DNA from: Candidatus Atribacteria bacterium
GTDB taxonomy: Bacteria > Atribacterota > Phoenicimicrobiia > Phoenicimicrobiales > Stramentimicrobiaceae
DNA: 64,000 nucleotides
Direction of reading: 5' to 3'
Assembly: GCA_018402425.1 (NCBI GenBank)
Contig: JAGYIZ010000006.1
Span: 1 to 64,000, forward strand
This document shows, in pieces, positions 7,870 to 51,447 of this stretch. Positions within the stretch are counted from its first letter, which is position 1, and every line of letters begins with the position of its first letter. Position numbers and translations under genes: made by a program. Under the pieces are notes generated by a model. It saw only the letters and a program-made list of their open reading frames with translations. It was not told where the DNA came from and ran no database searches.

Positions 7870-8112
7870 TTAAACTGCAATGTTTGATTTATTTTCATTT
7901 CTGATAATACCTCTGGATTTTATTTTCTTCAGGAATTGGCAATTTTCTTTCTTAATAAATTCAGATGTTCTTCCATTTCTCTATCTTGCCTGATAGATGC
8001 AATCTTCATAGAATGGCCTACTCCGGTAAAACCTTCGATATCAGGAGAATAAAAAGTAAAAATGTAGATCTTCTGTAGCTTCTATAATTAGGGAATATTT
8101 TAAACTAATCAT
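7870..8112 (-). pseudogene. HicB-family antitoxin, frameshifted
   Basis: The ATG at 8110-8112 follows an excellent ribosome-binding site ('aaggaggg'). The protein opens 'MISLKYSLIIEATED' and continues after a shift as 'DIEGFTGVGHS', then 'MEEHLNLL', then 'LPIPEEN', the HicB partial RNase-H fold. At least two frameshifts interrupt it. HicB neutralises HicA; the broken hicA lies 12 bases upstream in the usual order. Confidence 0.7.
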
Positions 8113-8124
8113 TTTATACCCTCC

Positions 8125-8315
8125 TTATTTTAAGCCAGCACTTTAAGATAAAACTACAAGTACCAGCAGGGACTTTGAACCATGATAGTCTATTCTAATC
8201 AGCTTTGTGCAGGTTTACTATAATAGCGAATTGAACCTTTTCTTTGACAATAGAGTAATCCATTTCTTTCTAAGATTCTACCAATTCGCTGAACTTCAAA
8301 ACTGTTCTAGTTTAG
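8125..8315 (-). pseudogene. HicA-family mRNA interferase toxin, degenerate
   Basis: The reverse strand shows diverged HicA pieces: 'GFTLL..QRK'-like sequence, the 'R-I-D-Y-H-G' equivalent of the catalytic His segment, and a tail resembling 'PAGTxxSILKxAGLK' ending at 8125. Several stops and shifts separate them, and the 5' boundary is approximate. Position next to hicB supports the call more than the sequence does. Confidence 0.5.
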
Positions 8316-8851
8316 TAATTATCAAAACTTTGTAATATTTTTCCTTTTTCATTATAAAGTATGCGACTGATATTTTCAATTTTGCTTTTGTTCGTAATGA
8401 CAGAAAATAGTATAACGTATTCCGTATAACGTATAACGCTTAAATACAATAAAAAATCTGTCGGCAAATACAAGATACAAGATAAAAACAGTTTTCAGTT
8501 ATTAGATACTGTGTCAAAATCAACTCGCAAACTCTCCCAAAAGACAGATTATTAATTATTATTATTATAAATTACTCCCTAGGAAGATATTTGAGAATTT
8601 CCCTCTCCCCTCGGAGGGAGAGGGTTAGGGTGAGGGGGATAAGGAATCTATAATATATTTTTAATTTTATCTTCACCCCCACCTTAATCCTCCCCCCTCA
8701 AGGGGGAGGAAATGAGACAAGGAGTTTGCAATGACAGGATGAAACACCTTTGGTTAAACAATATTGCAATTTTCAAATACTCCAGGCATCCATTTGTTGC
8801 TGTTTTAATCTTAAAACGAAAAACGAAAAACTAATAACTTATTTGCATATA
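8316..8851. repeat. Intergenic repeats, two families
   Basis: Bases 8508-8640 are one copy of a ~130-bp dispersed repeat: 'gtgtcaaaatcaactcgcaa', an AT-rich 'ttattaattattatt' core, and a palindrome of 'ccctctcccctcgg' with 'agggagaggg'. Bases ~8670-8715 hold the separate C-rich 'cacccccaccttaatcc' palindrome. A 'gtataacg' word array lies near 8400-8440. Confidence 0.65.
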
Positions 8852-9637
8852 CTATTTTATCTTCTGTTGAATAAATTCAGGGAATAATATTATTCTTTGT
8901 GCATCATCGGGATGGAATAAGAATGGCTTTACATCTGCTGCCAGTTTCTTCAAATTTAATTCATTGCACTTTTTTAATATTATATTCCTTATTTCTTCCA
9001 AATAATCATTTTCTTTTAATCCCATTTTTTCTATTAAATAATGATAGTTTGGTTTTGTCTTGGAAAATAAAAAGATTGCATCAAAGAAATCCCTGCCCAT
9101 GGGACGAGGTCTTTTGAGGATAGCCAATATTTTTTGAGCCAACAATATGTCCGCTGGCACTGCCCTTATCTTAAGTAAAATGTCAAAATTACTAACAAGA
9201 ACACTTTCGGCTTTATACTCAATATTTTGTGGTTCAGTATCCAGCTGGATAGTCATCTTTTCCCGAGCATGCCCGGAAAGATTATATTGGTAAAAAATCC
9301 CCGGAAATTTAATCAGACATCTGAAGGCATTCTCTATCCTATTGCTTATTTCTACCTGATAACCAAGTAATTCTAATTTTTTAGATACTACTTCTGATAA
9401 ACCAGAAAAATCTTTTTCATTTAACCCCCGGTTATCAAAATCTAAATCTTCTGAAAATCGCTGATTGCCATGGATTATATGGATAGCAGTACCACCCATA
9501 AATATTAAATGATTCCCATATTCTGAGCGGTAAATAATCTCTAAAATAACATATTGTAAGTATTCTCTTAGGAGGTTTCTTTTGTAAATTCTAATATTTT
9601 CAGGATAAAATGATTCAATTTGTGCCAGACTAAGCAT
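8852..9637 (-). CDS. AbiEii/AbiGii-type nucleotidyltransferase toxin
   Basis: The 261-residue frame is complete and carries the family's nucleotidyltransferase signature: 'FMGGTAI' (residues 46-52) and 'RFSEDLDF' (60-67), which hold the metal-binding acidic residues. A C-terminal helical region follows with Lys169 in 'AQKILAIL' and 'GRDFFDAI' (181-188). In type IV toxin-antitoxin systems such enzymes transfer nucleotides, in some cases to tRNA acceptor stems, and cause reversible growth arrest. The start overlaps the end of the upstream AbiEi-like gene by 8 bases, so the two were co-translated. That upstream antitoxin is frameshifted while this toxin is not. Confidence 0.85.
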   Translation of the reverse strand: MLSLAQIESFYPENIRIYKRNLLREYLQYVILEIIYRSEYGNHLIFMGGTAIHIIHGNQRFSEDLDFDNRGLNEKDFSGLSEVVSKKLELLGYQVEISNRIENAFRCLIKFPGIFYQYNLSGHAREKMTIQLDTEPQNIEYKAESVLVSNFDILLKIRAVPADILLAQKILAILKRPRPMGRDFFDAIFLFSKTKPNYHYLIEKMGLKENDYLEEIRNIILKKCNELNLKKLAADVKPFLFHPDDAQRIILFPEFIQQKIK

Positions 9638-10246
9638 TTTTTATATGCCTCCAAAAATGATTCATTCTTTTGGTCAGACGCTTTTGGTTGAATTTTTCTA
9701 GATATTCATTCATTTTTTTTTCGTTAACTTGTTCTATCAGTACTTCTTGGTTTATTCGCAAACTATCGAAATCAGAGGCTGTCTGTAAATTCTGGTGAAG
9801 ATAGAAATAATCAAGAAGAGCCTTTTCGATACTGGCAATTTTTACATGATACCTTGTATTCTTTATTAAGCTATAACCAAAAAACAGGGGCGGGCTTATA
9901 CTGCGAAAGCTGAATTCTCCAAAAGATGTATTAAAATGATAAGTCTTTCGAGTTGAGATTGCCGTAATTCCATAAATGCTTTCTGGTATTAAATTATAAT
10001 AAGATAAAGTACTCTCTAAGGAAACATAAGATGGATAATAGATTTGATTGGAAATTTTAAATAATATTTCTTCATCAACAACTATATCAGAAAACAGATA
10101 ATAGCCTCGATAATCTTTTTGATATAGCCTTTATCCTGCCATTCATTTAATCTTCTTCTATGAAAGTCAGGTTCGATGTTCTTTATGTCATTTAAAGAAA
10201 ATATAGTGAAATCTTTCAGTTCGTTTTTTAATTCCAAGAACTTCAT
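9630..10246 (-). pseudogene. AbiEi-like antitoxin with one frameshift
   Basis: It starts at the ATG at 10244-10246 behind a 'ggagaaata' site and opens 'MKFLELKNELKDFTIFS' with a wHTH ('RRRLNEWQDKGYIKKI'). About 45 codons in, a single missing base near 10105 throws the frame into a stop. The next frame continues the family sequence ('GYYLFSDIVVDEEILFKIS', later 'SIEKALLDYFYLHQ') to a stop at 9630-9632 inside the toxin start. Only one lesion is visible, so this is a recent break, phase variation, or a sequencing error. Confidence 0.7.
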
Positions 10247-10591
10247 TATATTTCTCCAAAATGTTATTTATAGCATTTTCAGGAAATATTATATCATTAA
10301 AGAACCTAAATGGCAAAGCAAATAGGAAAAAGTCTGCGGTTGTCATTTTTCTGTTTTCAGTTTTTAGAATAAAAACTACAAATACTGTGGGCATATGGTA
10401 TGAGATTGCCGCGCAGGCAAAAGCCTGCTCGCAATGACAAAATCGTATATCGTTTAAATACGGTGATTAGTGATAAGTAACCAGTAATGAGCAAGAGGCA
10501 ATAAAATCAAATATTTAATCTAAAATGAAAATATACAGATCTTTTATCGAAATCTCTTGTAAGCCATGTTAATTTATCCAACTTTATTTAT
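10247..10591. repeat. Intergenic composite repeat
   Basis: A copy of the composite repeat: the palindrome 'attgccgcgcaggc' paired with 'gcctgctcgcaatgac' at ~10404-10438, then 'gtatatcg', 'gtgattagtgataagtaacc' and an 'aaatatttaatctaaaa' end at ~10525. A short frame across 10188-10394 overlaps the AbiEi start and is not considered a gene. Confidence 0.55.
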
Positions 10592-12525
10592 TCATTTTGA
10601 TTTTACCTTTTTCCCAAAATCCATTACCACTCTATCGATTAATTTCTTACCTTTTGGGGTAAGCCAGAATTCTTTAATTGCCCAAACTTCTAACTTAGGA
10701 TGAGTTTTTTCTTCTTTTGTATCCAGCGCTCCAAACCATTTTAAGTATCTGATTAAAATCCCATTGACTACTGGTGTTAATGCGAAAGCAATTTCAACTT
10801 CTCTTCCTTTTTGAGCAATATTATTATAGAGTTCTTTTGTAAATGAATTGCTATTTATCTTTTCGTTTGGTTTAAACTGATGGAAAGGGTGCCATAATCC
10901 AACAATTTTTTTCTGATATTCTTTGGCATAGGGTTTAACATGTTCTGCTGGTTGTAATTCTACCCAATTTACTTTTTCAATCCAGGTAATCATAAGCTCT
11001 ATTGTCTTGTCGCCATACCTTTTTTTAGTAAATTTCTTAAATTTTTTATGATTGACCTGTACATACCCCTTCTTATCATGAAAAATTAATTTCGCTGCCC
11101 TGGATAACAGGTGAATAAAGTGAATGTAGAGCTTCCTCTTTTCTTCACCCCTATTTTCTTCTTCTCCCATGAATACAAAGCTGTCCTTACCAGGATTAAT
11201 GAAATTCTTTTCAATTAATTTGAGGTGTTTAAAGGGTATCCAGCGGTTTTGTTGGGTTACTTTTATGTGATTATCCTGAAAATAATGAACAAAAGTTTCC
11301 ACATCACTGGCCACCGGAGAATTTCCTTCATCGATATCATTGAGATTTATTAGATCTTGAGAATCTATATCTATAGGGTCAATACTAAATGAAATCGGAA
11401 ATCTTTCCTGGGACTATTTATTTTTTCTCTCTCTTCTTTCATTGCCTGGAAAGGTGTTTTTCCATTTAGTTCTTCTTGTGGTTCATTAAGCCATTTCCCC
11501 TGCAATTCCTTAATCGTTTTTTCTATTTCCTCTTTATTGGAAAACTTTTTAATATCCACATTTTCTTCAACATATTTCATAAAATCTTTTAAAAGTTCTT
11601 TTTCCAAGGGACCCATACTTCCTTTATTTATTTCTTCCGGAGATTTTCCCTGGAATTCATCTCGGGGAGTATTATTCCAAAAATCATAGAATAGCTGCTG
11701 AAATTCAATCAATTCTTCCTCTGAAGAAATATGCATCTTTTGTACCAGTTCTTTGATAAGAGATGTAGGATCTGTAATCCGATTGACCTTTTTTCGTAAA
11801 CTTTTAATAGAAGGGGCCTTTTTGCCTAAATGTTTTTTTAAATAATTTCTTAATTTTTTCTCTATGTTTTCGATAGACTCCTGGCTATTAGATCTCTTAT
11901 TCTCATTTTCTACACCTCTCTGAAGGATTTCCCTTTCAATCATTAACGGGTCAATATCCTTAGAGATTTCTTTGGGCAAATCTTTCCAGGCTCTTTTTGC
12001 CGTGTAAGAAGGAACATCTGGCAGATATAGATTGATACCGGACAAGGCATAATCTGATTCATAGGGTAAAATTCTTCCGATAAAATAATCATTTTTTTGC
12101 AGCTGAAAGGTGGCTTGATTTTCTCTCACTTTATATTCCTTTCCCGAGGAAAGATCTTTTGCTATAAAACAAGATCCTGGCCATACTGTGCTAACTGTAA
12201 AGCCACTGAAAATATTATTTTTAAACCCCTGAATTATTTCTTTATCTTTTTGATTATATTTATAGAGCATTTTAGATATGAATAATTCAATGGGTTTCCT
12301 TTTATAATTCTTTGAAGTATAGGAATAAATAAAATAGTCATTGAATCTTAATTCGGCCATTTCTTCTGCATCGGGAGTTAGGTAGTATTTTTGGGGGTTT
12401 TTAGTTAGGAATTTTTCCCGTTCTTGAACCATTTCTAAAAATAAATTATAGTCAGATTCACAGAAGTCGAGTATATCATTGGTAAATTCATCGATTCTAG
12501 TAGCCGGTTCCTTCCAATCAGTCAT
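10592..12525 (-). pseudogene. Unknown ~645-residue protein split by one frameshift
   Basis: Two adjacent open frames (384 residues, 11371-12525; 240 residues, 10592-11314) belong to one gene. The upstream frame derails near 11395. The other frame reads on as 'PISFSIDPIDIDSQDLINL' straight into 'ASDVETFVHYFQDN' without a start signal. The total span is one base short of 645 codons. Two copies of a W-x-N-x-P-x-x-E-x-x-G-K-x-P motif lie near residues 287-304 ('FWNNTPRDEF' then 'GKSPEE') and 351-368 ('WLNEPQEELNGKTPFQ'). Coiled, Lys/Glu-rich sequence lies between residues ~215 and 280. The C-terminal half is basic with no catalytic motif I recognise. The family is unknown to me; the two motif copies resemble short modules in some SEC-C-type proteins, which is weak. 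Confidence 0.6.
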
Positions 12526-12787: not shown

Positions 12788-13060
12788 TTATGGTCTTTTT
12801 AGCGTTCGGTCATGCTTGCCAATATTGCGGAGTAGGATAGAATCTGACTGATAATATTGCCAGGTCATGCGAGTATCTCGATTTACCCTGCATTCAAATA
12901 TTTCTGCAGTGCCCTGGATTTTTTTGATCTGTAAAGAAGGATGGAATAGCGCAGTTGGATTTTGTAATAACAGTTCTAATTGTTTTTGAAATGTCTGTTG
13001 TTCTTCTTTTGTTAGTTTTTGAAAACTGCTCTTAAACCATTGGGTTATTTGAATCTTCAT
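12788..13060 (-). CDS. RelE/ParE-superfamily toxin
   Basis: A 90-residue protein of typical RelE/ParE size. It has an N-terminal helical hairpin ('WFKSSFQKLTKEEQQTFQKQ'), the 'ALFHPSLQIKKIQG' strand-loop, and the C-terminal sheet 'EIFECRVNRDTRMTWQYY' with 'ILLRNIGKHD'. The basic residues Arg76 and His80 of the last strand could serve the mRNA-cleaving role of RelE-like toxins, but I cannot tell RelE (ribosomal RNase) from ParE (gyrase) function. The start codon directly follows the antitoxin stop (taa-atg), showing a coupled operon. The frame is intact while the antitoxin's is not. Confidence 0.8.
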   Translation of the reverse strand: MKIQITQWFKSSFQKLTKEEQQTFQKQLELLLQNPTALFHPSLQIKKIQGTAEIFECRVNRDTRMTWQYYQSDSILLRNIGKHDRTLKRP

Positions 13061-13335
13061 TTACTCTTTTAAATCTTTCATTAATTCATCAGTATTATTA
13101 AAAGTTTTTACTCTGCCTTTTTTGATATCTTCTTCAGCTTCCCTCTCCTCTTTTTGCCAATTTTTACTCCAGAACCAGGTTTGGCTTTTATCAATAATGA
13201 CAACTGGCTTCAATACTATTTCATCATCGCGAAGTTCAATAGAAATAGTATCACCTTTTTTTAAATCCAATTTATCCATTATATTCTTAGGAATTGTTAT
13301 CTGGGAATTGTCTCGATTTTAGTCATTTTATCCAT
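13061..13335 (-). pseudogene. AbrB/MazE-type antitoxin, 5' frameshift
   Basis: The family start is the ATG at 13333-13335 behind 'aggtgac' ('MDKMTKI'). One missing base near 13315 breaks the frame before 'DNSQITIPKNIMDKLDLKKG', which is the SpoVT-AbrB DNA-binding swapped hairpin. The open part from the internal Met at 13279 (72 residues) keeps the second half of the hairpin and the toxin-binding tail, but lacks the first strand. A shortened protein could still bind the toxin without binding the operator. Confidence 0.7.
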
Positions 13336-14027
13336 TTATGTCACCTGTATTGATATTAATAATTTATTATTCTATTAATATATTAGAATAATTATTTATT
13401 GTTTGCAGAAAAAATGGTTATCGGTTGTTAGTTATCGGTTTTCAGTGAAAAATGCAAGATTACAAGGTGCAAGGAAAAAGTGATACTGTGTCCAAAAGTC
13501 AGCTCACAAACTCTCCCAAAAAAGACAGATTATTAATTATTATTATTATAAAATTATCCTTTCTTACTTACTTTCCCTCTCCCCTCGGAGGAGAGGGAGA
13601 AACTAGGGTGAGGGGGAGGAAATGAAAAGAGGGTATTGGTTATAAAATAAAGTTTTAGTTATTTGTATAGTACAAGTGATGAGCAATAGATAATAGATCT
13701 AAATATTAAATCTATAAGCAATATAATTTACCAATTAATAAGACGCAAGATTCAAGGTGCGAGTTACAAGTTAAAATTAGTCGTTAGTCGTTGGTCGTTA
13801 GTATTTAGTTTAATACAGTACAAAAACACAAAAACGTTCTGGAATAAGTGGATGAGATTGCTTCACTTTGTTCGCAATGACAAGAAAGAAGGGGTTGTTC
13901 GCAATGACAAAACAGTATCGGGTATCGAGCACTAAATACAGTGATTAGTAATAAGTAACCAGTAATGAGAAAGAAACAATCAAATCAAAAATTTAATCTA
14001 AAAACCAAAAGCTAAAAACCAAAAACT
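13336..14027. repeat. Intergenic repeats, three families
   Basis: Bases 13482-13660 are a copy of the ~130-180 bp dispersed repeat seen also near 8508, 28660 and 48919: the 'cacaaactctcccaaa' head, the 'attaattattatt' core, the 'ccctctcccctcgg' palindrome and a 'aaatgaaaagagg' tail. Bases ~13740-14020 are the most complete copy of the composite repeat: 'tagtcgttagtcgttgg' words, the 'attgcttc..gcaatgac' palindrome at ~13855-13882, 'gtatcgggtatcgagc', 'gtgattagtaataagtaacc', and an 'aatttaatctaaaaacc' end. Confidence 0.7.
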
Positions 14028-15080
14028 TTATTTATATGGTCCTTCCAGGTATTTGGAGAGAATAAGTGCCGGGTCTTCAGGGGAAGATAGCAAGGAAAAT
14101 ACTGCCAATGAGTGGATAAATTCAATAGGATAATCCAATTGGCCCCAAACTTTAAAACCTTTTTTAGCGAGTGTGGCAATTCCGACGCTTTCATAATATT
14201 CAGGCTTTTTGGTATCCCTTTCGGCCTGACTGCAGGCAATAATATATGGTTTTTCCCTGTTTTGATAATATGAAGCCAGGAAATCCAATACATTCGAGGG
14301 GGCATTCCCTGCCCCAAAACCGTAAATACAGATAATTTCTTTATCTACTTCAATCCTGGGCTTTAATCCGGGAACACACATCAGCCATTCAACCTTTTCA
14401 TAAATTGCTTCAATTTCTTGTGTCGTATAGTGTAAAAAAGATTCTATTTCTTTTGCCGGATGGTATTCTCTTTGTGATTTAGAATCTTCTTTCTGGTTTT
14501 GCTGAGGTAATTCAGGTTCAAAGTCTACTGCCTTATCATTGCTGGCAATAAACATATCCGGGTGAGAGGCACGGGCTTTATGAGCACGGTTTCCGGGAAT
14601 CAATTTCCAGTTACAGTAAATCCAGACACCGGGGAAATCGGAACATACTACCTGGAAAGCACCGCTTAAATTAACAGTAATATCTTCTGTCTTATAATCC
14701 AGGGTCAATTGGCTGCCGGTAATAATAATAGGAATATGAAGGTCAGGAAAACACAGGCTGAGCCAGGCAGAAAAATAGGCCATAGTATCTGTGCCAAAAA
14801 GAATTAGTATTCCATCAATACCCTTCTTTATTTCTTTTGACAAAACTTCAGTAATATTAATCCATTTACCGGGATGGATATTAGAACTATCTTCTCCCGG
14901 AATCCCTAAGGGTTCGCGAAAAACTAATTCTATATTCGGATCCTGAAAAGTTTTTTTGATATAGTTGTGCAATAAATGGAAGGTCTTCTCGTTTGGACGG
15001 ACAAATTTGGTATTTTGATTGTAACCACTGTTAATAGTCCCCCCGGTAAAAACAAACAAAATTCTCTTCTTTTTACTCAT
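14028..15080 (-). CDS. L-asparaginase / amidohydrolase family protein
   Basis: Hydrolyses L-asparagine to aspartate and ammonia if the family assignment holds. The N-terminal catalytic motif 'FTGGTI' gives nucleophile Thr15. 'EDSS' (63-66) is the substrate-carboxylate loop, and 'GTDTM' (96-100) holds the second catalytic Thr97-Asp98. In most asparaginases a His precedes that Gly; here it is Phe. At 350 residues it is slightly longer than usual, with a charged insert at ~197-213. No signal peptide is visible, so it is cytoplasmic. It stands alone between repeat-rich DNA and a hairpin. An asparaginase-like glutaminase or amidotransferase subunit cannot be ruled out. Confidence 0.8.
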   Translation of the reverse strand: MSKKKRILFVFTGGTINSGYNQNTKFVRPNEKTFHLLHNYIKKTFQDPNIELVFREPLGIPGEDSSNIHPGKWINITEVLSKEIKKGIDGILILFGTDTMAYFSAWLSLCFPDLHIPIIITGSQLTLDYKTEDITVNLSGAFQVVCSDFPGVWIYCNWKLIPGNRAHKARASHPDMFIASNDKAVDFEPELPQQNQKEDSKSQREYHPAKEIESFLHYTTQEIEAIYEKVEWLMCVPGLKPRIEVDKEIICIYGFGAGNAPSNVLDFLASYYQNREKPYIIACSQAERDTKKPEYYESVGIATLAKKGFKVWGQLDYPIEFIHSLAVFSLLSSPEDPALILSKYLEGPYK

Positions 15081-15180
15081 TTCAATTTTCTCCCCTATCC
15101 ATCGGTGCTAAAGAATCGTATTCTAGTAAAATCTCTCAGATAATTTGTTTTCTGTCTCTATTCTAATCTAATGCTTTTGG

Positions 15181-16775: not shown

Positions 16776-18335
16776 ATGGCTATGAAAAAAATAATACAAT
16801 TACTATTCATTTTATTTATTTTTCTTATTAGCGCTATATCTGCTTTCGGAGATACCGGGGAGAAGATTTTAATTGCTTCCGGAGTAGTTCCTCATCACAT
16901 GCTGGCAAAAGAAATCATAATAAATTTTTTTGAATTCGTCGCCAAACAGGAAAAGCATCCTGAAACTGTCATTCTTTTAAGTCCGGATCATTTTAATTGC
17001 TCAGCACTTCAGAAAGAAAATTCCTTTATCAGTATTGATTGGGAAACAGATGATCTTAAGCTTGATGAGATATTAGTTAATTGTAAATTACTAAAAGAAT
17101 TGTCAATTAGCAATAAGATAAAACCAACCCGAAGCTCAGTATTGGCAGAATTTGGTATTACCAATCTTCTGCCTTTTATTAAGGAGTATCTTCCAAAAAC
17201 AAAAATTATCCCCATTATTATACCGGAAGATATTTCCCGGGAACAGGTAAGTCAGCTGATAGTAACAATTGATAATATTGCTCCCTCCAAAACTTTACTG
17301 GTTGCCAGTGTCGATTTTTCCCATTATCTGCCACCTGGGGCTGCGTCATTTCATGATACTAAAAGCATCAGGGTCTTATTAAACTTTGAGAAGGAGCATT
17401 TTGAAAATATAGAGGTAGATAGCTGGCAATCATTATATGCTGTTCGCTTATTTGCAAAATTGCGGGAAAGCGAAAAACCAACCTTTATTGCCCATAAAAA
17501 TTCTGTTGATTTTTTACCCTATGATTTGAATTCTACAACTTCCTATTTCAGTGTTGTTTTCCAGGAAGGAAAGCCCGGGGAGAATCTACAAGCAGAAACT
17601 ATTTTACTAGCCGGGGATATGATGCTTGGGCGCGGCACGAAAAAATTGATGGGAGAAAATAGTATTTATTATCCCTTTCAGAAAATCGTGCAATTGCTAA
17701 GGGGCGTAGATATAGTCTTTGCTAATTTAGAAGGGCCTGTAGTGAAAAATCCACCGGAATTTTCTGTTGATTCATTAAAATTCTCCTTTCATACGAACGT
17801 GCTGGAAAGTATAAAATGGAGTAAAATTAATCTGTTATCATTAGCCAATAATCATATTATGGATATGGAGGAGAAGGGTTTTCAAGAGACTATAGACTGG
17901 CTGGGAAAATACCAGCTTAACTCTATCGGAAATCCACTATCCAGTTATCAAAATAGTCTAAATCTTTCTTTCTCTACGGAACACTCTGTTTTTCTGGCTT
18001 TTAACCGGATATTGCCGTATATTAATTATCAGGAAGAAATTATTGCAGAAATTAAAAAAGTGAAGCTGAATAATCCGGGAAAAATTATCATTGTAAGCAT
18101 GCATTGGGGTAATGAATATGAATTAACTAGTTCTCATGCTCAAAGGGAATTAGCTCATAAGGTAATTGCTGCCGGTGCTGATATCATTGTAGGACACCAT
18201 CCTCATGTAGTTCAGGAAATTGAACTGATACAGGGTAAACCGGTCTTTTATTCATTGGGAAATTTTATCTTTGACCAACAGTCTTTTCCAGAAACCAGGG
18301 AAGGATTAATAGTTAGCCTGTCAATTGAAGGATAA
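16776..18335 (+). CDS. Secreted MEMO-like / CapA-like fusion protein
   Basis: A 519-residue two-domain protein with an N-terminal signal peptide (residues ~3-25). Residues ~30-265 look like the MEMO fold of AmmeMemoRadiSam protein B ('SPDHF' at 69-73, 'VDFSHYL' at 179-185). Residues ~273-519 are a CapA-type metallophosphatase-like domain with 'LLAGDMMLGRG' (278-288), 'FANLEG' (315-320), 'LANNHIMD' (356-363), 'MHWG' (441-444), 'GHHPHVVQ' (472-479) and 'SLGNFIFD' (492-499). CapA proteins act in poly-gamma-glutamate and surface polymer formation or peptidoglycan-linked hydrolysis. The frame stops right after the last core strand, but the following ~200 bases resemble a decayed continuation, so the tail is probably lost. 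Substrate unknown. Confidence 0.8.
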   Translation: MAMKKIIQLLFILFIFLISAISAFGDTGEKILIASGVVPHHMLAKEIIINFFEFVAKQEKHPETVILLSPDHFNCSALQKENSFISIDWETDDLKLDEILVNCKLLKELSISNKIKPTRSSVLAEFGITNLLPFIKEYLPKTKIIPIIIPEDISREQVSQLIVTIDNIAPSKTLLVASVDFSHYLPPGAASFHDTKSIRVLLNFEKEHFENIEVDSWQSLYAVRLFAKLRESEKPTFIAHKNSVDFLPYDLNSTTSYFSVVFQEGKPGENLQAETILLAGDMMLGRGTKKLMGENSIYYPFQKIVQLLRGVDIVFANLEGPVVKNPPEFSVDSLKFSFHTNVLESIKWSKINLLSLANNHIMDMEEKGFQETIDWLGKYQLNSIGNPLSSYQNSLNLSFSTEHSVFLAFNRILPYINYQEEIIAEIKKVKLNNPGKIIIVSMHWGNEYELTSSHAQRELAHKVIAAGADIIVGHHPHVVQEIELIQGKPVFYSLGNFIFDQQSFPETREGLIVSLSIEG

Positions 18336-23716: not shown

Positions 23717-24111
23717 TTAAAGAGCTGGATTTTTGGCAATCATTTCGTAATAATGATCGGCATGAAAAATAGTTAAATCATAATATGTCGCTAAAGAAGC
23801 AATACAAAGGTCAACAGTTGGCACGGTGATTCCTTTTCTTCTTAGGTTATAAGCTAATTGCGCACCTGTGTTCCAAACTTCTTTATTAGTCTCCAAATAA
23901 TGAAGGGCATTCATCTCTTCAGCTATTATGTTGTATTCTTTATTATTTTTAGCTCCCTGTAAGATTTCAATCATTATCAATCCACAAGTTGCAACCAAGT
24001 CTTTCTCCAGCAAATCCCCCACTAATTCTTTTATAGTTGCTGAGCAATTGTGTTTTAGGCTAAAATCCATAGGGAGGAATCAAGAAGGAACCAGGTTATT
24101 TTATTACTCAT
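23717..24111 (-). pseudogene. VapC-type PIN-domain toxin, 5' frameshift
   Basis: The start at 24109-24111 gives 'MSNKITWFLLDSSLWILA', which carries the first PIN-domain Asp of the 'D-S-S-x-W/I' motif. A single-base shift after it stops the frame. The next frame (from 24070) encodes the remaining PIN domain: 'CGLIMIEILQGAKN' with the conserved Glu, 'TVPTVDLCIASLA' with the third acidic residue, and 'TIFHADHYYEMIA'. The metal-binding Asp in the first strand is thus separated from the rest, so the RNase should be inactive. Start ATG overlaps the VapB stop (ATGA). Confidence 0.75.
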
Positions 24112-48791: not shown

Positions 48792-49527
48792 TGTGCTAAA
48801 TCTGTAATCTCCATTTTAATAATAGATAATGTAAAAAGCTAAAATATTTTTACAGTTTTTAAAACTAAAAAATATTCTATCATTCAATTCCTATAAATGC
48901 AACAAAACAGTATTGAGAGTCTGTGTCAAAAGTCAACTCACAAACCCTCCAAAAGACAGATTATTAATTATTATTAGAAAATTATCCTTTCTTATACTTC
49001 CTCTCCCCCTTGTCACCTTCACCCCACCTTAGTCCTCCCCTCAAGGGGAGGAAATGAGATAGCAATCCTTCCTCAAGGGGAGGAGACGATATGGCTCAAT
49101 CCCATTTAAAGGAGGAGGAAGAAAGATTTAATTCTTGCCTGAGTGGTAAATGAGATGGGTCAATCCTTTCTTCCTCGAGGGGGAGGAAAAGAAAAAGTTA
49201 ATTCTCACCTCAAGGGGGAAGAAATGAGAAAAAGAGTCTATGTTTCTCAATCGGGGAGGAAATGAGAAAAGAGTTACCTCGGCCTTAAGGGGGAAGTTAC
49301 CTTCCCTCTCCCCAAGGAGGGAGAGGGTTAGGGTGAGGGGGATAAAATGAAAGAGGAGTATTGGTTTATAAAATAAAAATAAGAAGCATTCTCAATCTGA
49401 TCCATATTCGTATATCTAGGTGAATGGATTATTGATTTAATCTGAAAACTGAAGACCGAGAACCGATTTTTATAACTTATTACTGTATTTTATGCTCAAT
49501 ACGCGATACGCACGACGCAATACAATA
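48792..49527. repeat. Repeat cluster between the permease and the dead binding-protein gene
   Basis: Bases 48919-49005 are the left part of the ~130-180 bp dispersed repeat; its right part (palindrome half 'gggagagggttagggtgagg' and tail 'aaatgaaagaggagtattgg') appears at ~49297-49375. The ~290 bases between are irregular tandem C/G-rich units such as 'cctcaaggggaggaaatgag', spaced ~35-60 bases. Bases ~49430-49527 carry 'ctcaatacgcgatacgcacg'-type words. Confidence 0.7.
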
Positions 49528-49764
49528 AATATCGCACCCGCTTAGCGGGTGGCTTTAAGAACCCCTAAAAGAGGTTTACTTTTTTCTTAATACCTTTTTG
49601 TCCTGCTTTTTTCTACTATTTTTACTGAATATTTCTAAGCATTAAAAAAGTTTGCTTTGGACTGTAGAAAAATATCAGATAGCTTCTCTTGCTCTTTTTT
49701 ATGGTAAAACCAATTTAACCATTACACCCTTCTTAGAAGGTGTTTTTTCATGGTTAAATAAAAA
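49528..49764 (+). repeat. MITE-like element, largest copy
   Basis: 237 bases. Left end 'aatatcgcacccgcttagcg' with hairpin partner 'gcgggtgg', then 'ctttaagaacccctaaaaga'. Right end 'tttaaccattacaccc' / 'ttcttagaaggtg' hairpin and 'atggttaaataaa'. The middle ~130 bases are AT-rich and differ from the 43122 copy apart from a shared 'tcttaa' and 'atggtaaaacca' or similar. Confidence 0.75.
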
Positions 49765-49797
49765 AGGGATGAATCAAAAGATTCATCCCTTTTTTAT
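49761..49797. terminator. Bidirectional Rho-independent terminator
   Basis: Perfect stem 'gggatgaatc' / 'gattcatccc' with an AAAA loop, flanked by A-run and T-run. It lies at the 3' end of the binding-protein remnant (minus strand) and directly abuts the MITE-like element. Confidence 0.85.
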
Positions 49798-49805
49798 TTA
49801 ATTTA

Positions 49806-51447
49806 CTATTTAATATCAACAGGGTAGAAGAATTTGCGGGATGTTGGGTGTAAAGTGGTTCAACTACATTATTGATGGAAAACTATATTTTTGGATTGAA
49901 TGAGCTGTAAACCCATCTCGGCATCTTCATGAACCACCTGCTTTTTTATAATATCCTTCCCGTTCATTTATATCATAAGTTCTCAAAGTTTTAAAATCTG
50001 ATTTTCTTCGTTAGTATAGGTGCATAGTTTCCGGTTAAATGAACAGGCATTTAGTCCGTACAGAACATTCATGAAATTATCCGGTCACCATTATCACCAG
50101 TCCATCCAAGAGGCACATCTGGTGTTGTCCGGCTTCAGTCTCCCCTGCAAATAGGTTCCCCAGTTCACCTTTTATAGAAGTTAACATCGATACCGACAGC
50201 AGCCAGATAACTCTGAATAGCTCCCGATTTTAGGTGGATCAAACATATATGGTCTGGAGACGGCATGACGTAAGGTTACTTCAAAACCACAGAATCGGCT
50301 TCAGCCAGTAATTCTTTGGGCTCTTTCCGGGTCGTAAGGATAATCTTATTCCATCATGGTGTCCAAGTACACTTGGGAGGCACACCTGTTTTGGCTACAG
50401 AAGCAGTCCCCATATAAATGTCTCTGACTATAGATTCTTATCAATAGCCATATTGATTGCTTTTCTTACTTCTTTCTTAGTCATGGCTCATAATAGCCTG
50501 GACTTTCTAAAGGCTCATTAGGTCTTTTACCTTACTTTATTAGCATCTACATAACCATAACCTATGTTCATGGCCATATAACCAACATTCATTCCTGGCT
50601 CAGTCAGAAGCTTTAGATCAGGATTAGCCTCAATACGTTCAAGATCAGATGGGTTAGGATATTCTATTCCATGAACCTCTCCTACTTTTAAAGCTCAGCA
50701 ATCGGGCAGAGGGATCTTCAATAACCCTGAATATCAATTTATCCAATTGAGGTCTTTTCTCCAGTAATCTTCATTGGCTTCTAAGGTAATAAGGATCATC
50801 TTTAACCCATTTCGACAAATTTAAAAGGTCCGGTTCCACATGGATTCTGAAGAGTATTCCTCAGCATTGGTCGGACTCAATAATTGCAACTGTAAACATG
50901 GCTAAACTGGTCAGTTATGGATGCATTTGGGGCTTTTAAAATACTTTTACTGTATAATCAATTTTACTCACAATAATTTCTTCATTCTCGACTGTTTTAA
51001 AAGAATACAACTGCTGAGGCACCGAGATTCAACTTTTTACATCACAAACATATAGCCCCAATAAGGCCACTCACCATACTGATGATAGGGGTGCTCAGGG
51101 TTACTCGTCGAGCAAAAGAAAATAAAACTGCATTGGCATTAAAATCAGTCCCGTCATGGAATCTAACACCTTTTCTTAGATAAATACAATTTCGGTACCA
51201 TCGTCGAAATTTCCAAGTGATTCTGCAAGACATGGTTTACTCCTCAGTAGAACCTGCTTCATATCTCACTCACCTCTCAAAAATATTGTCCATCCTCTGA
51301 ATAGACTCACCGTCACATGTCAGCCGGATCTAAACGAACGGTATCTCGCTACTACCAAAGACTAAAACTTTTTCTTTGAGCCATACTCTGACATAACTAA
51401 TCCTAAAGATAAATAAATGTCACAGATTATTAATCCTTATTTTTCAT
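49806..51447 (-). pseudogene. Peptide ABC transporter substrate-binding protein, shattered
   Basis: The start ATG at 51445-51447 follows 'aaaaggag'. Reverse-strand pieces across frames give an OppA/DppA protein: 'KEKVLVFGSSEIP', 'ESIQRMDNIFE', 'RYEAGSTE', 'YLRKGVRFHDGTDFNANAVL' (the SBP_bac_5 signature) and, at the very end, 'RKFFYPVDIK' to the stop at 49806-49808. ~547 codons is the right length. More than ten lesions. This was the first gene of the dipeptide transporter operon; the permeases and ATPases are intact. Confidence 0.82.

Follow-up and report, generated by a model that had tools for sequence, protein, structure and literature searches.

A mobile gene family of uncultivated bacteria with a tentative link to defence islands, and its frame-broken member in an Atribacteria contig

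The window analysed here (64,000 nucleotides of a contig from a Candidatus Atribacteria bacterium) carries on its minus strand a gene that is split over two frames, and which belongs to a family of uncultivated bacteria from Atribacterota, Aerophobota and some other groups. The relatives are intact single open reading frames, the gene has moved horizontally, it is often surrounded by defence genes, and cas1 neighbours of two kinds are seen. The reading that we tentatively favour, and hold with a little less than even confidence, is that the gene is mobile and encodes a nucleic-acid-binding protein with an accessory or regulatory role in defence islands, the window copy being a frame-broken member of the family. 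The family has no name in Pfam, NCBIfam, PHROGs or PADLOC, yet a single gene has crossed bacterial families and recurs among defence genes; if the link to defence were true, it would be a testable new component, and it would offer a first clue to the function of the N-terminal module of the protein and of the SEC-C proteins in which this module also occurs. Our literature searches found no paper on the gene, which is weak evidence of absence.

A single protein split over two frames

The gene consists of the following parts:

11398..12525, minus strand: 5' piece (376 codons before the break), with a helical and putative OB-fold N-terminal domain and both W...P...G-K-x-P motifs
11393..11402, minus strand: frame change, one base short compared with the relatives (from phases and alignment)
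10592..11413, minus strand: 3' piece in the next frame, with a linker and a tandem winged-helix-like C-terminal domain (from homology, profile match and model)
10595..11323, minus strand: C-terminal domain modelled alone, predicted to be tandem winged-helix-like (pLDDT 81, pTM 0.83)

The pieces appear as the minus-strand open reading frames 12525..11371 (384 aa) and 11314..10592 (240 aa, GTG start); the open stretch of the second begins at 11413, and the stop of the first begins at 11373. Their phases are one base apart, which corresponds to a loss of one base or a gain of two, and homology puts the frame change at about 11395-11400, right after R-K-D-F: similarity to the relatives runs in the first frame up to S-P-R-K-D-F and is taken up in the other at P-I-S-F. 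The initial annotation had proposed one protein split by a one-base deletion at about 11395. Both phases and alignment agree with this, and all 11 named near-full-length homologues are single open reading frames of 635-664 aa, with none encoded as two separate genes. The 5' piece, present as a single copy in its own genome, is 69-74% identical to the four closest relatives, and the profile matches to the window pieces (E 3e-198 for one and 3e-118 for the other) exclude chance. Programmed frameshifting as a cause of the split was set aside, as 11/11 relatives are read in one frame.

The two motif copies described previously are present in the window (W-N-N-T-P-R-D-E-F-Q-G-K-S-P and W-L-N-E-P-Q-E-E-L-N-G-K-T-P), and the pair recurs, in some cases with substitutions, in all 11 relatives scanned, with the pattern W-N/L-x-x-P...G-K-S/T-P across the family. 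The basic character ascribed to the C-terminal half holds for the window protein (net +11, pI 9.4) but does not extend to the family, in which the net charge varies from -4 to +13 (11 relatives).

Distribution and horizontal movement

A scan of GTDB genome contigs revealed 13 loci, of which 11 encode near-full-length members (within L018-L028), one a partial member (L029, a truncated form of 306 aa) and one a distant homolog (L030). The hosts are Atribacteria MAGs (L018-L023), a "Vogelbacteria" MAG (L024), Aerophobetes (L025 and L027), a "Clostridia" MAG that is assigned to the same phylum as the latter two (L026), and another bacterium (L028). Within Atribacterota, the phylum of the window, 9 of the 50 genomes have a match; no tblastn match was found in plasmids and phages, and none of the pattern matches in viral contigs encoded a relative. 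Locus L018 has two paralogs (8001-9956 and 13383-15143, about 3.4 kb apart), the second of which is shorter (587 aa), is devoid of the stretch that precedes the first motif, and follows a gene assigned to PDC-S23 by PADLOC.

In L019, L020 and L021 (genomes G006, G045 and G016 from families f1, f5 and f2, respectively, according to our own correspondence of gene coordinates), the gene is 95-96% identical at the DNA level. The block common to L019 and L021 comprises little more than the gene, with 79 bp upstream of the start and about 150 bp downstream of the stop, and has unrelated flanks beyond, while the block common to L019 and L020 is longer and takes in a HEPN pair. For comparison, L018 and L019 belong to the same family (f1), and their core flanks are only 66-73% identical. 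The same pattern is seen for L022 and L023/L028, at 82-83% identity. As judged from these alignments, the gene moves alone and horizontally between bacterial families; mis-binning of small contigs is possible, but the unrelated flanks require movement even in that case.

Age and cause of the break

The pN/pS ratios of the 3' piece against L018, L019 and L021 are 0.34, 0.38 and 0.35 (0.37-0.40 for intact pairs), and those of the 5' piece are 0.23-0.24 (0.25-0.28 for intact copies), with synonymous changes near saturation in most pairs. As the ratio after the break is equal to that between intact copies, nothing points to prolonged decay, and the break is probably not old. Several other genes of the window are frame-broken too:

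9633..10282, minus strand: AbiEi-like gene (tblastn with the intact L019 protein, two frames)
6948-6006: RhuM-like gene, counterpart intact in L018 or L019
2842-2317: nucleotidyltransferase, counterpart intact in L018 or L019
about 2321-2021: HEPN gene, counterpart intact in L018 or L019
18574-19649: DUF3160-like gene, counterpart intact in L018 or L019

In addition, a CapA/Memo-like gene (16776-18335) stops early, with the similarity continuing in the same frame to 18485. The names RhuM, DUF3160, oppA, CapA/Memo and nucleotidyltransferase (MNT) are presumptive, in part read by eye. Broken stretches are distributed along the contig (1983-2882, 5970-6996, 9633-10282, 18574-19649 and about 49000-51300), the last of them comprising an oppA-like gene that looks broken as judged by eye.

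The contig is either error-rich or decaying, and the source MAG is 78.6% complete and divided into 137 contigs; draft errors and recent decay of the island could each account for the break. Since other window genes are frame-broken too, the deletion need not carry biological meaning. One could go further and regard the window copy as a decayed or mis-assembled gene, mere island debris in a draft MAG, from a housekeeping family with nothing special about it, as the broken AbiEi-, RhuM-, nucleotidyltransferase-, HEPN- and DUF3160-like genes nearby, the oppA-like gene at 49-51 kb and the state of the MAG would suggest. We consider this unlikely: the copies in the relatives are intact and constrained, the family moves horizontally, unlike housekeeping genes, and debris accounts for the break, not for the family.

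Genomic neighborhood

Defence or toxin-antitoxin (TA) genes occur within 5 kb of the gene at 8 of 11 loci including the window, although these loci are not all independent:

window, 8852..9637, minus strand: AbiEii nucleotidyltransferase (PF08843, 1.1e-21), a homolog of which adjoins the gene in L019 too
window, 12788..13279, minus strand: MazE-like/YafQ-like pair (Pfam matches below the cut-offs)
L018: PDC-S23
L019: AbiEi, AbiEii, HEPN and type I restriction-modification (RM)
L020: HEPN pair, in the same block as in L019
L024: type I RM
L025: cas4, cas1 and cas2
L026 and L027: PIN in each

Defence or TA genes were not seen within 5 kb at L021, L022 and L023, and no RES-type toxin gene was found by Pfam among the window neighbors scanned. 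The window gene had been annotated as part of a defence-like island beside TA modules, and the AbiEii gene and the MazE-like/YafQ-like pair do adjoin it; the initial annotation is correct in substance. A type III restriction enzyme guessed by eye beside L020 has no Pfam match and is not claimed here. Further along the window, 23717-24070 encodes a PIN-domain protein (PF01850, 7e-6) that may be a solitary VapC-like toxin.

A comparison with PADLOC at E<=1e-15 gave 144 models matched among 55 neighbor ORFs and 34 among 98 control ORFs, counting models rather than proteins, so that many models match one protein. The neighbor set was compiled without L028 (a sister of L023), L029 and L030; 1 of 56 neighbor ORFs, the L018 paralog, was excluded, as were 9 of 107 control ORFs located at the end of a contig or stretch. 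The control stretches were picked by contig number, unmatched, and random stretches also had some matches, and we regard the enrichment near the gene as an indication only.

Association with CRISPR-Cas genes

In L025 the gene is an operon neighbor of a type I-B adaptation module, in the order cas4, 32 bp, the gene, cas1 right after its stop, cas2, and an array with three copies of the CRISPR repeat (cas4: TIGR00372, 1.8e-28; cas1: TIGR03641, type I-B, 8.2e-140; cas2: 1.2e-13). Downstream of the gene in L027 lie the first 34 codons of a cas1 (58.8% to that of L025, E 1.5e-6) and one CRISPR repeat that is 92% identical over 38 bases to that of L025; a cas4-end-like stretch of 10 residues, which is not significant alone, precedes the gene. 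By sequence similarity, this is an eroded remnant of the arrangement in L025. As L025 and L027 are relatives, the two cases probably go back to one event. Independently, L069 encodes a cousin of the family with a TPR-like C-terminal part, separated by 430 bp from the cas1 that comes after it; cas2 and cas4 follow, and cas3 is ahead.

These arrangements could mean that the protein is a CRISPR accessory that helps or regulates spacer acquisition by Cas1-Cas2-Cas4, with the other copies acting in trans or having escaped, but we find this somewhat less likely still than island debris. Most copies lie away from cas: counting the window with the 11 named loci, cas genes or their remnants are near just 2 of the 12 that are full-length. 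There is no regular operon with cas1-cas2, and L027 has kept the gene and lost cas1 and cas4. No cas1 was found in 7 of 9 Atribacterota genomes that carry the gene, including G000, many of these being incomplete MAGs; carriers are no richer in cas1 (2/9) than genomes without the gene (16/41; Fisher p 0.46), which leaves a link to cas1 unsupported as a general rule.

Predicted folds and sequence motifs

The AlphaFold model of the L018 protein (12-row alignment, pLDDT 77, pTM 0.44) comprises helices (residues 10-103), a small beta domain (105-167), a helical middle that includes both motifs (287-300 and 349-362) and a C-terminal domain from about 405. The VIA comparison of the whole model essentially concerns residues 101-169 and 405-637. 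The former resemble cold-shock domains (Z about 8, rmsd 2.2-2.5 over 66-67 residues) as well as RPA and RecO (Z about 7-7.5), which suggests that the beta domain may be an OB-fold. The C-terminal domain of the window protein, modelled alone from 14 rows, resembles the winged-helix part of TFIIH p52 (Z 8.0-8.9, 135-142 residues, rmsd 3.4-3.9), and its residues 131-243 resemble PadR regulators (Z 7-8), suggesting a tandem winged-helix arrangement. The alignments are shallow (12 and 14 rows), and Z of 7-9 may mean a mere common arrangement; as neither the whole model nor the C-terminal domain had a Foldseek match at E<=0.001, these folds are suggestions and not family assignments. A sequence-profile search of the PDB returned only chance-level matches, and no catalytic domain was recognised in the protein.

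In Pfam, about 24 residues of the second motif match PF09722, the C-terminal toxin-binding domain of Xre/MbcA/ParS (E 1.4e-4 for the window piece; E 2.3e-5 for L018, with 24.7 bits marginally over the cut-off of 24.5), and the rest of the protein is at chance level. This match, found at E<=0.01 in 4 of 12 members, covers only positions 12-35 or 13-35 of the 51 in the model. No family was found over the protein in NCBIfam, and no Cas family is matched there or in PADLOC; 0/12 members matched in PHROGs, 0/12 in PADLOC-DB 2.0.0 at E<=0.01, and 0/12 matched SEC-C (PF02810). The view that the protein belongs to no known family has thus stood up to all four collections, none of which yielded a profile match to an unrelated family over its length. 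By the tests made, its sequence places it outside the antitoxin, SEC-C and Cas families.

The likeness to Xre/MbcA/ParS antitoxins is confined to the stretch W-L-x-x-P...L-x-G-K-T-P, while the protein described here is much larger and has the motif in a central position and doubled. That it is a large antitoxin-like protein, with PF09722-like motifs that capture and inactivate the toxin of a nearby gene, is the least probable of the alternatives. In its favor, the second motif reaches the Pfam cut-off in L018, TA genes are frequent neighbors, and Xre antitoxins likewise combine DNA binding with a PF09722-type domain (PMC12457610). Against it, the match is limited to about 24 of the 51 model positions, the gene travels by itself with no constant partner, the neighbors vary between loci, and the same motif pair is found in a SEC-C protein.

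Proposed role

In the reading that we favor, the protein would be an accessory or regulatory factor of defence islands, and DNA or RNA would be bound by the OB-fold of the N-terminal domain together with the tandem winged helices of the C-terminal domain. The paired W...P...G-K-x-P motifs would serve for docking to another protein, much as Xre/MbcA/ParS antitoxins use their related motif to attach to the toxin. The predicted folds point to nucleic-acid binding and the likeness of the motifs to partner docking, in that the middle part may act like the antitoxin docking motif, and we infer a role in defence from the neighborhood. A more specific version, to which we assign about the same low likelihood as to island debris, is a new mobile defence factor, either stand-alone or linked to CRISPR adaptation, that would bind nucleic acids with its OB-fold and winged helices and plug into different immune systems, including cas4-cas1-cas2, via the paired motifs.

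Other proteins with the N-terminal module

The N-terminal module has a match in 28 of 386 sampled genomes and occurs in several other contexts. It is present in proteins of 444-523 aa with TPRs (L069, L071, L072, L079 and L080), which share with the family the N-terminal domain and the second motif, and differ in their TPR-like C-terminal part, where the family has the predicted winged helices. The PADLOC match of the TPR-type cousin spans residues 346-448 only, around the TPR part. The protein from a Planctomycete (L030, 1002 aa) has the N-terminal module (profile E 4.6e-95, with L030 itself included in the profile; independent tblastn E 2e-14) followed by both W...P...G-x-S-P motifs in the same order, but its long C-terminal part ends in SEC-C (PF02810), whereas the family has the winged-helix-like domain and no SEC-C in the 12 members scanned. 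Other, shorter SEC-C proteins, in which SEC-C was identified by motif pattern, share the N-terminal domain alone. As far as searched, the N-terminal module thus appears to be common, and the putative winged-helix part peculiar to the family.

Proteins of about 210 aa that consist of the N-terminal domain alone are encoded beside a gene that we take, by eye, to be carA (L011, 1453-2088; L012, 1432-2058; L013, 1333-2013) or between presumed carA and carB (L074, 3071-3721), in several unrelated genomes overall. Directly upstream of the TPR-type cousin we found a Fic-family gene in two related genomes (L072, 8037-9128; L079, 179-1252), and in L071 (2467-3321) a gene for a plasmid pRiA4b ORF-3-like protein (PF07929, 2.5e-54).
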